From a bacterium (GTDB lineage: Bacteria; UBP15; UBA6099; DSWB01): a stretch of 6,862 nucleotides of DNA. Numbering within the stretch: position 1 is the stretch's first letter; each line of letters starts with the position of its first letter. Shown here one piece after another: positions 433 through 2,923 of this stretch. A program made the position numbers and the translations under genes. The stretch lies in assembly GCA_020061125.1 (NCBI GenBank), contig JAGUYV010000190.1, forward strand, positions 1 to 6,862. The letters are read 5' to 3'. Below the pieces are notes generated by a model. That model did no database searches, had not been told where the DNA came from, and worked only from the letters and a program-made list of their open reading frames with translations.

Positions 433-696
433 ATGCCGAACATCAAATCCGCAAAGAAGCGGCTCAAACAGAACGAGAAGCGCCGCATGCGCAATAAATC
501 GTACAAGTCGTCTATGCGCACGGAACTCAAGAAAGCCGAGCAGGCCCTGGAAGGCGGAGACAAGGAACAGGCCAAAGCCCAGGTTCTGGCCGCGTGCCGC
601 AAGCTGGACAAGGTGGCCCAGAAGGGCGTTATCCATGTGAATCAGGCGAGCCGCGGCAAGTCGCGTCTCATGAGCAAGCTGAATAAGATTTCCTGA
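433..696 (+). CDS. rpsT: 30S ribosomal protein S20
   Basis: The 87-residue product begins MPNIKSAKKRLKQNEKRRMR, the typical S20 N-terminus, and is strongly basic throughout. The middle is a helix (about residues 30-65) with the conserved RTELKKAEQAL pattern, and the tail has VAQKGVIHVNQASRGKSRL, another S20 hallmark. Length is normal for bacterial S20. S20 binds the 5' domain of 16S rRNA early in small-subunit assembly. The open frame extends upstream to 391, but ATG 433 is chosen because the family begins MPNIKSAKKR. Purine-rich sequence precedes it (AGGAAT at 415-420 and GGTGGAA at 421-427, the latter 5 bases from the ATG). The gene has its own promoter and its own terminator, so it is monocistronic. 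E. coli rpsT uses a UUG start; this one uses ATG. Confidence 0.98.
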   Translation: MPNIKSAKKRLKQNEKRRMRNKSYKSSMRTELKKAEQALEGGDKEQAKAQVLAACRKLDKVAQKGVIHVNQASRGKSRLMSKLNKIS

Positions 697-779: not shown

Positions 780-783
780 ATCA
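780..783. repeat. Left copy of a 4-bp direct repeat (ATCA) flanking the MITE-like element
   Basis: ATCA directly precedes the GGGG that opens the left inverted repeat. The same four bases directly follow the CCCC that closes the right one. This is the arrangement expected of a target-site duplication. Four bases could match by chance about 1 time in 256. Confidence 0.5.
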
Positions 784-802
784 GGGGTGTGTTGAAAAAT
801 CC
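784..802 (+). repeat. Left terminal inverted repeat of the MITE-like element
   Basis: GGGG, a variable TGT, then GTTGAAAAA, T, CC. It matches the inverse of 1039-1056 except for one gap and two substitutions. Confidence 0.6.
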
Positions 803-976
803 ATTCATCTCGCGAATATGCGGTGAAATTATTCCCAGCCTTGCGCCAACACGAGCCAGCTTCTTGATTGGTGAAAGTTTTAAATCATTATTCCTTGGCG
901 AAAGGAAACCACACAACGGATTCGCAGCCAGTGTTCTATCGCCACAAAACCGCCGCGCACAAAGCGCAGAAGCAGC

Positions 977-1022
977 AAAAACGGGGACTGGGAACGCGGC
1001 GCTTTTCCGCGCGCCTGTCCCC
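977..1022 (-). terminator. Large imperfect hairpin inside the MITE-like element, candidate terminator of the minus-strand operon
   Basis: Read on the minus strand, GGGGAC (1022-1017) pairs with GTCCCC (988-983). Inside these outer arms, GGCGC and GCGCC can pair around an AAAA-containing loop. The second arm is followed by G and then TTTTT (the complement of A977-A981). The symmetry extends outward through GCAAAA/CTTTTGC (975-1031). It starts about 36 bases beyond the symporter stop codon, a suitable place for a 3' terminator. The stem has mismatches in its middle, so its strength is uncertain. It may simply be a structural part of the element. Confidence 0.45.
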
Positions 1023-1038
1023 TGCTTTTGCGGCCGCC

Positions 1039-1056
1039 GGGTTTTTCAACAGCCCC
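1039..1056 (-). repeat. Right terminal inverted repeat of the MITE-like element
   Basis: GGGTTTTTCAACAGCCCC on the plus strand; its reverse complement aligns with the left end at 784-802. Confidence 0.6.
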
Positions 1057-1060
1057 ATCA
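1057..1060. repeat. Right copy of the ATCA direct repeat, containing the symporter stop codon
   Basis: ATCA follows the right inverted repeat directly. On the minus strand its TGA (1060-1058) is the stop codon of the symporter gene. A 4-bp duplication here would leave that stop codon intact. Confidence 0.5.
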
Positions 1061-2923
1061 GAGGAATTTTTCTATGGTCACGATCTGGCCGGGGCGGAAC
1101 AGCGACACTTCCATGTTGAAGCCGCTGATGAGCGCGGTGTCCCCGGGAGCGTCATTGGGGGCGAGCGCAGCGCGCGCGTGAATCGAGTGCAGGCCGCCGT
1201 ACCACCAGCGCGGATCGCACAGATACACATGGTCGCCGGGCCGGGCGTTCATGGCCTTGAGTGCGGACTCGGGCAGCAGGACCGCGCCCGCGCCGTCTTC
1301 CTCGCCGCCCGCCGGAACCGCATCCCACGCCTGCACCGCGAGGCGCACGATTTTCCCGGGTTCGGGGTTGGGTTCCGAGCCTTTGTAGATTTTCATGGCC
1401 GCGCGTTCCGGTCCGATGACCAGGCCCGCGAGTTTTTCGCGCGGGGGCTTTTTGGTGACAAGTGTTACGATAATGCCGATGCCCGCGGCGCACGCCAGGC
1501 CATAAAATGCGCGCGTGTAAATGTACGCGTTGCCGAATCCCGGGGTGAACGGCTCCCCGTGCGAGAACGGCACGATGAGCTGGGGATAGAACATGCCTGC
1601 GATCATGGCGAGGCCTCCGCCAATGAGCGCGGCCATGGCGCCGGGCGCGTTGAACCGCTTCCAGCAGATGGCCAGGAGCAGGGCCGCGGCCATGGGTGGG
1701 GTGATGGTGGCCGTGAAGATCCCGTGCGCCACATAAATGGATTCGAAGCGCGCGAACAGAGGCACCAGAACCACTCCCAGGAGCGTGGCGGCCACGGACA
1801 CCCAGCGGGCCACCGCAAGGTAATAGCTGTCTTTGCGGCCTGGCGCGAGGTACGGCTGCACCACATCATTCACCGTGATGGCGGCCACCGCGTTGATCAG
1901 CGTGTCCACGGTGCTCATGAGCGCGGCGGTGAGCGCGGCCAGAATCAGCCCGAACACCCCGGGCCTGCAGATGAAGTACGCCGTGTTCATGAAAATGTTC
2001 TGCGGGTTGACGTCCGGGGGCAGTAGCCCTTTGTTCACCATGGCCGTGCCGAGCCAGCCCGTGCTGTCAATGGCGAACATGGCCAGGGGGCACAGCACCA
2101 TGATAACCATCAGCATGGTCAGCCGCGCGTCTTTGACCGAGCGCACCGCCAGGAATCGCATGATGATGCCCTGGTTCATGAACCAGAACACGGCGCTGTT
2201 GGCCATGCCGTCCTGCCAGAACACGCCCACGAACGAGAACGATGCGTCATTGTTGTATTCGGCCAGAGCGTATTTGTGGCCAGCGGGCACATGGGACCAG
2301 AATTCCCCGAATCCGCCAAGATAAAAAATGCCCGCGACAAAGATGGTCACTCCGGCGATCAGCAACAGGATCCCCTGCAGCAGGTCGGTCATGATCACCG
2401 ATGTCTGCCCGCCCGCCGTTATATATACGGCGCAGATTACCGCCACCACCAGGACAATGTAGATGATGTCAATCTTTAAAATCGGTTGCATCACCACGCC
2501 CATGGTGTAGAAGTTGATACCGATGTAACCCGTCAGGTACAAGAGCATGAACACAGTGAGCGCCATGCGTGTTGCCGGGCTGAATCGTTTCTCGAAATAT
2601 TCGGGCACGGATTTGATTTTTGAATAATAAATGATCGGGATCCACCCGAACATCATCAGCGGCAGCCACATCCAGTCGTTCATATACGACATGCTCGAAG
2701 AAAAACCGTACTTGAAGGCATTCTCCGAGTATTTCACAAAACTGTAAGAACCCACCAGGGTCGCGATGCACGAGAACGCGATCAGCCACCACGCGAACCG
2801 TTTGCCGCCGAAGAAGAAGTCCGTGGATGTCTTTACGAATTTGCCGTAGTACGCGCCAAAGCCGAGTATGCCTATGAAGTAGGCGATAAGAATGATCCAG
2901 TCTATGGGTTGAATGTGGACCAT
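1058..2923 (-). CDS. Sodium:solute symporter (SSS/SLC5 family) with a soluble C-terminal extension
   Basis: The 621-residue product is an inner-membrane transporter that uses the Na+ gradient to import a small solute; the substrate cannot be read from sequence. Residues 1-490 hold about 13 hydrophobic helices. Family marks include ITAGGQTSVIMTDLLQG (about 168-184), the usual 'GG...TD..QG' of SSS proteins, and AALTAALMSTVDTLINA (329-345), at the position of the helix that supplies Na+-site hydroxyls (S337, T338). Residues 500-621 are a hydrophilic tail. It has a run LPESALKAMNARPGDHVYL (550-568) then DPRWWYGGLHSIHA (570-583), which looks like a small beta-rich domain; most SSS proteins end sooner. 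The start is ATG 2923, with TGAGG (2935-2931) 7 bases upstream. It is last in its operon, 9 bases after the preceding stop codon. Its own stop lies in the flanking repeat of the MITE-like element. Confidence 0.92.
   Translation of the reverse strand: MVHIQPIDWIILIAYFIGILGFGAYYGKFVKTSTDFFFGGKRFAWWLIAFSCIATLVGSYSFVKYSENAFKYGFSSSMSYMNDWMWLPLMMFGWIPIIYYSKIKSVPEYFEKRFSPATRMALTVFMLLYLTGYIGINFYTMGVVMQPILKIDIIYIVLVVAVICAVYITAGGQTSVIMTDLLQGILLLIAGVTIFVAGIFYLGGFGEFWSHVPAGHKYALAEYNNDASFSFVGVFWQDGMANSAVFWFMNQGIIMRFLAVRSVKDARLTMLMVIMVLCPLAMFAIDSTGWLGTAMVNKGLLPPDVNPQNIFMNTAYFICRPGVFGLILAALTAALMSTVDTLINAVAAITVNDVVQPYLAPGRKDSYYLAVARWVSVAATLLGVVLVPLFARFESIYVAHGIFTATITPPMAAALLLAICWKRFNAPGAMAALIGGGLAMIAGMFYPQLIVPFSHGEPFTPGFGNAYIYTRAFYGLACAAGIGIIVTLVTKKPPREKLAGLVIGPERAAMKIYKGSEPNPEPGKIVRLAVQAWDAVPAGGEEDGAGAVLLPESALKAMNARPGDHVYLCDPRWWYGGLHSIHARAALAPNDAPGDTALISGFNMEVSLFRPGQIVTIEKFL

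Follow-up and report, generated by a model that had tools for sequence, protein, structure and literature searches.

Known relatives of the element and its palindrome

Individually, MITEs, IS1182 transposons, and REPs are all familiar. Palindrome targeting has been mentioned previously for members of the IS1182 family, among them IS1272 of staphylococci, whose targets are inverted repeats (PMC5678879). In that work, stem-loop replacement was observed and loop duplication was sketched as an alternative pathway, IS1272 replacing the palindrome without a target duplication (PMC5678879). REPs, which are dispersed palindromes struck at a fixed point, have been described as targets of the IS3, IS110, IS4, IS256, and IS5 families, a list that does not name IS1182 (PMC1525189). 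In addition, RUP, NEMIS, Correia-type, and ERIC elements are small, intergenic, and bounded by terminal repeats, and have no coding capacity (PMC3733652).

The element described here, located at 785–1056 of the analysed stretch, resembles the last group in size, terminal repeats, intergenic place, and lack of coding capacity. Its ends are different, however, and the several size families of related copies have one palindromic core in common, which also occurs bare in sister genomes. This core is dispersed and struck at a fixed point in the manner of the REP targets (PMC1525189), but whereas the REP is a target only, the palindrome here is also found inside the element. In contrast to IS1272, 5 bp of the target is duplicated. 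A MITE as such is a known kind of element; what is new is a core that is shared in three states, bare, as a target, and inside MITEs.

The element in the window

The window, that is, the whole stretch of 6,862 nucleotides, carries the element between two convergent genes, rpsT for ribosomal protein S20 (433–696, plus strand) and a gene for a sodium:solute symporter (1058–2923, minus strand; PF00474 at 1.5e-39), the latter being a neighbor outside the element. To the left of the element, rpsT is followed on the plus strand by a terminator-like hairpin with a T run (724–748; inverted repeat 724–732/735–743, then TTTTTGCG). An initial annotation had recognized a MITE-like element with inverted ends here, spanning 273 bp (784–1056) and flanked by a 4-bp duplication, ATCA. 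The segment is a non-autonomous transposon (MITE), for which the best-aligned ends give 785–1056 and 272 bp instead. GGGTGTGTTGAAAAA at 785–799, the left terminal inverted repeat, is complementary to TTTTTCAACAGCCCC at 1042–1056 in 13 of 15 positions. Because the full 15-bp alignment of the ends shifts the left boundary by one base, the duplication measures 5 bp rather than 4: the flanking direct copies are present as described, but they read ATCAG (780–784 and 1057–1061) and have the length found around sister copies. When 15-bp ends with at most two mismatches and the same 5-mer outside them were sought, the segment held one such structure and its dinucleotide-preserving shuffles none (0/200).

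The right copy of the duplication contains the symporter stop, TGA at 1058–1060 on the minus strand, and the coding sequence of the symporter is therefore intact after the insertion. The annotation had placed the element at this stop and found it devoid of a transposase, both of which hold: only short chance frames overlap the 272 bp. Of the two ends, the left matches the consensus end of the family, GGGGCTGTTGAAAAA, in 13 of 15 positions, and the right (1042–1056) is exactly that consensus on the minus strand. Between them lie a left interior at 800–828 that is absent from four other long copies in the same genome, a middle segment at 829–974 (plus strand) that is common to these copies, and the palindromic core at 975–1031 (plus strand; GCAAAAACGGGGACTGG...CCTGTCCCCTGCTTTTGC with a T.T mismatch), which is common to the order. 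A search of the window against Rfam gave no match.

Copies of the family in the host genome

The host genome (G000; 4.1 Mb in 513 contigs, with the assembly 78.8% complete) contains 41 blastn matches to the segment. The four long copies, on C44, C118, C106, and C113, belong to the D type (about 311 bp) and align from about 829 (matches begin at 827–829) to the right end with 84–91% identity. This genome contains 63 occurrences of the consensus end, allowing up to one mismatch, and none of its reversed control, while ends of this type number 0–8 in each of 97 other survey genomes, where the controls number 0–7. Paired ends define size types A (about 130 bp), B (149 bp), C (160 bp), and D (about 311 bp), and the copy in the window is D-like, with other sequence in place of the left hairpin. 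With boundary shifts of one base allowed, 10 of the 27 elements are flanked by an exact 5-bp duplication, against a chance expectation of about 0.9% per element by our own estimate; the duplicated letters include ACCGT, GCAGT, AAGAT, AAAAT, AATCT, ATCAG, and ACTGG. The earlier reading is supported as right in substance, with small corrections: copies with the same ends are multiple and lie at unrelated sites, not as a single copy with conserved flanks. All of the relatives compared belong to other genera and families than the host, and none supplied an empty orthologous site for the window copy.

Other repeats are present in this genome as well. A separate insertion sequence (L084:1487-2912, G000:C291:3486-4911) has 38-bp ends, TAGTTAAGTATGGTGTCCCATAAGCG..., and a DDE_Tnp_1 transposase of 400 residues, and its motif TTAAGTATGGTGTCCC recurs at further repeats (C70, C294, C424). 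Another repeat, CGGTAAGCGC-GGGGTTGTTGAACAATCCCAGC... (L068:500-700, L069:560, and L087, which is C424:9037), has MITE-like ends and, after them, about 130 bp of conserved sequence.

The probable parent transposon

A total of 84,980 species genomes were scanned for exact ends 85–115 bp apart, which gave 46 stretches with unrelated interiors, from planctomycete, deltaproteobacterial, armatimonadote, hydrogenedentote, and other MAGs. Genomes of these matches include IS1182 transposons bearing the same ends, full-length insertion sequences of the kind that the initial annotation had suggested looking for as a source of the transposase. L181 and L193, from Candidatus Hydrogenedentota NORP43, are 1593 bp long with perfect 15-bp ends and IS1182 genes inside; L183, from a LacPavin MAG, is 1564 bp long with the ends GGGGGTGTTGAAAAA, one mismatch per end. 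The transposases of all three exceed the cut-off of the IS1182 model NF033551. They match the MITE in their 15-bp ends (perfect or with one mismatch per end) and, in L181 and L183, in the 5-bp duplication, and differ from it in encoding a transposase and in being about six times longer, with no shared interior noticed. The duplications are GTCTC for L181, in the center of the palindrome CATGGGC-GTCTC-GCCCATG, and GTTGT for L183, in the center of TATGGGG-GTTGT-CCCCAGG; L193 is flanked by GAGAC at one end and GTCTC at the other, which is not a direct duplication. Such loop-centered 5-bp duplications are consistent with the loop-duplication pathway (PMC5678879). A 1539-bp end pair in the genome AUK107 (L154) was considered as a further transposon and rejected, as no transposase-like open reading frame, judged by eye, is enclosed.

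In the host genome, the sole trace of IS1182 is a 3' fragment of a transposase gene at C203:1620-1715, whose open frame extends up to an end, GGGGCTGTTGAACAA, at C203:1461 that is one base off the consensus. Over a short stretch of 31–35 residues, this fragment is 66–68% identical to the enzymes of L181 and L183, and at most 47% identical to IS1182 enzymes with other ends. The window MITE is assigned to the IS1182 family because identical ends bound IS1182 transposons and because the C203 fragment is closest to the enzymes of precisely these; an IS1182-family transposon is its most likely source, and the transposase on which it depends is probably one of this family. An intact IS1182 transposase was not found in the host assembly, which is 78.8% complete in 513 contigs, and a search of the genome_contigs collection with the 85-residue IS1182 fragment returned no relatives. 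Given that the assembly is incomplete, the missing enzyme bears on present activity, not on origin. Literature searches for the end sequence returned nothing relevant.

Target choice

Outside the host genome, elements with exact ends favor palindromes: 21 of 34 distinct sites are palindromic against a background of 15% (p 7e-10, with sites in the same genome not fully independent), some of them of the form AATAGGTGACTGTCCC / ACTAGGGACAGTCCCTAGT, which is also found next to a RAYT gene in the genome G006. In the host genome, by contrast, insertion sites are not palindromic above background (3/16 vs 19%), so that its MITEs differ in this respect from L181 and L183, whose targets are palindromes. 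Target choice is therefore not uniform, and it should be noted that palindromic targeting does not define the IS1182 family as a whole. In AUK107, the genome of JAGGVT (L135-L180), at least 25 near-identical MITEs of 131 bp have the same ends, and many of them lie in the loop of a ATTCCCGC..GCGGGAAT palindrome, interpreted as a recent burst with strict site selection. The palindromic form ACTAGGGACAGTCACCTATT, an example of which stands just past the 3' end of the RAYT gene in G006, is also a MITE target (L259, L143, L173).

The core itself is a target too. In G006, a MITE with GGGGCTGTTGAAAAA ends but no core of its own is inserted into a core with the duplication ACTGG (L256; G006:C545), and further MITEs lie in core-like sequence (L255, L260). 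Several elements of the host genome are nested in the cores of others, for example at C31:23389, again with ACTGG duplicated, and flanks run straight into core sequence at 9 of 63 ends, compared with 3% for 40-mers drawn at random from these loci.

The palindromic core

The interior of the window element holds a hairpin, GGGACTGG...CCTGTCCC, that belongs to a repeat dispersed through the order. The inner stems of types A, B, and C differ from one another, but nearly all intact copies hold GGGACTGG...CCTGT[AC]C with an identical T.T mismatch, in most cases between an A-rich and a T-rich arm; in the automatic alignment of the cores, types A and B are offset by one column. The 3' arm reads either CCTGTCCC or CCTGTACC, an alternation seen both in types A and B and in the other genomes. 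Compared with shuffles, the B, C, and G001 forms fold far better (z −5.4 to −7.0), and the core of the window itself moderately better (z −1.3). Of the seven genomes of the order, six contain the pattern GGGACTGG-N12-32-CCTGTMCC, with 60, 12, 21, 9, 4, and 6 copies, whereas each of the other 186 genomes contains it 0–3 times.

The settings of the core vary from genome to genome. In G002 and G003 (21 and 9 cores), it stands bare, as a palindrome of about 58 bp that lacks terminal repeats and consistent duplications. In G001, it is enclosed by MITEs whose ends are of two further kinds, ATTCCGGCGCAAAAAGTCC and GGGTGTGCGACATAAAAGTGGG; their flanking repeats, as read by eye, measure about 7 bp and 7–13 bp, respectively, and the ATTCCGGCGCAAAAAGTCC ends match those of an IS1182-like element in G002. 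G002, G003, and G006 also have MITEs that carry GGGGCTGTTGAAAAA ends but lack the core. Homology of the middle segment to MITE interiors in G002 and G006 was also considered; it comes down to one 14-bp identity, which is too weak to claim.

Origin of the element and alternative explanations

Very probably, 785–1056 is a copy of a MITE family that is moved in trans by an IS1182 DDE transposase; the likeliest origin of its palindromic core is capture. The enzyme would recognize the 15-bp ends, excise or copy the element, and join it to cuts staggered by 5 bp, and repair would then yield the 5-bp duplication, here ATCAG with the symporter stop kept. We infer that the mover is an IS1182 enzyme whose intact copy has been lost or is unassembled. 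Capture would consist of insertions into or beside the core that left the palindrome between two sets of ends, a step read from the distribution of the core. The 15-bp end sequence alone is compatible with another transposase family having similar ends, and a DDE family of the DDE_Tnp_1 kind, with genes at C291 and C240 of the host genome, could be that family if the likeness to IS1182 were convergence. This is quite improbable, as both genes were rejected as the source of the MITE, given that the C291 transposon has different ends (TAGTTAAGTATGGTGTCCC) and no GGGGCTGTTGAAAAA pair was seen around C240, and as it is IS1182 genes that perfect 15-bp ends flank in L181 and L193. The thought that the resemblance to a transposon is due to chance, or to a structured region that does not move, such as a terminator region, draws on the intergenic position of the segment between convergent genes, where hairpins are common; with 41 genomic matches, 63 ends against none in the control, duplications at many copies, and no such structure in 200 shuffles, its probability is negligible, and the multi-copy result refutes it.

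It is also conceivable that the core is the mobile part, namely a REP moved by a RAYT, i.e., a single-strand Y1 transposase, that was inserted into several unrelated MITE families. The bare cores dispersed in G002 and G003 without duplications would fit this, as would the conserved mismatch of the core, which may be taken as REP-like, the two tandem cores just upstream of the RAYT gene in G006 (L241:137-1150, G006:C1), and the presence of Y1 genes in the host genome. Yet a Y1_Tnp match is absent from G002 and G003, the holders of 21 and 9 cores, and the core is absent near the four Y1 genes of the host genome and the other Y1 loci examined, 13 loci besides the one in G006. With no Y1 genes found in G002 and G003 and a single neighborhood of core and RAYT gene, movement by a RAYT is unlikely.

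Implications of the proposed palindrome capture

Returning to capture by IS1182-type MITEs, the data suggest that MITEs have repeatedly captured a palindrome that also serves as their landing site. The palindrome would be taken up as cargo because transposons insert in or next to it, and the occurrence of the core bare, as a target, and as cargo would all be explained by capture through insertion on either side. Half-elements are joined to whole ones at C67, C70, and C403, and these look like intermediates of capture. A broader proposal, which we put forward tentatively and hold somewhat less probable than its negation, is that a palindrome native to the order has become the cargo of transposons with at least three kinds of ends, and that its new copies act as landing pads, giving rise to nested chains and to a partnership that reinforces itself, with a REP-like repeat on one side and IS1182-type MITEs on the other. 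With one palindrome found within a single order on its own, in the interior of MITEs that differ in parentage, and as their target, these genomes would offer a route to study how transposons acquire their interiors.
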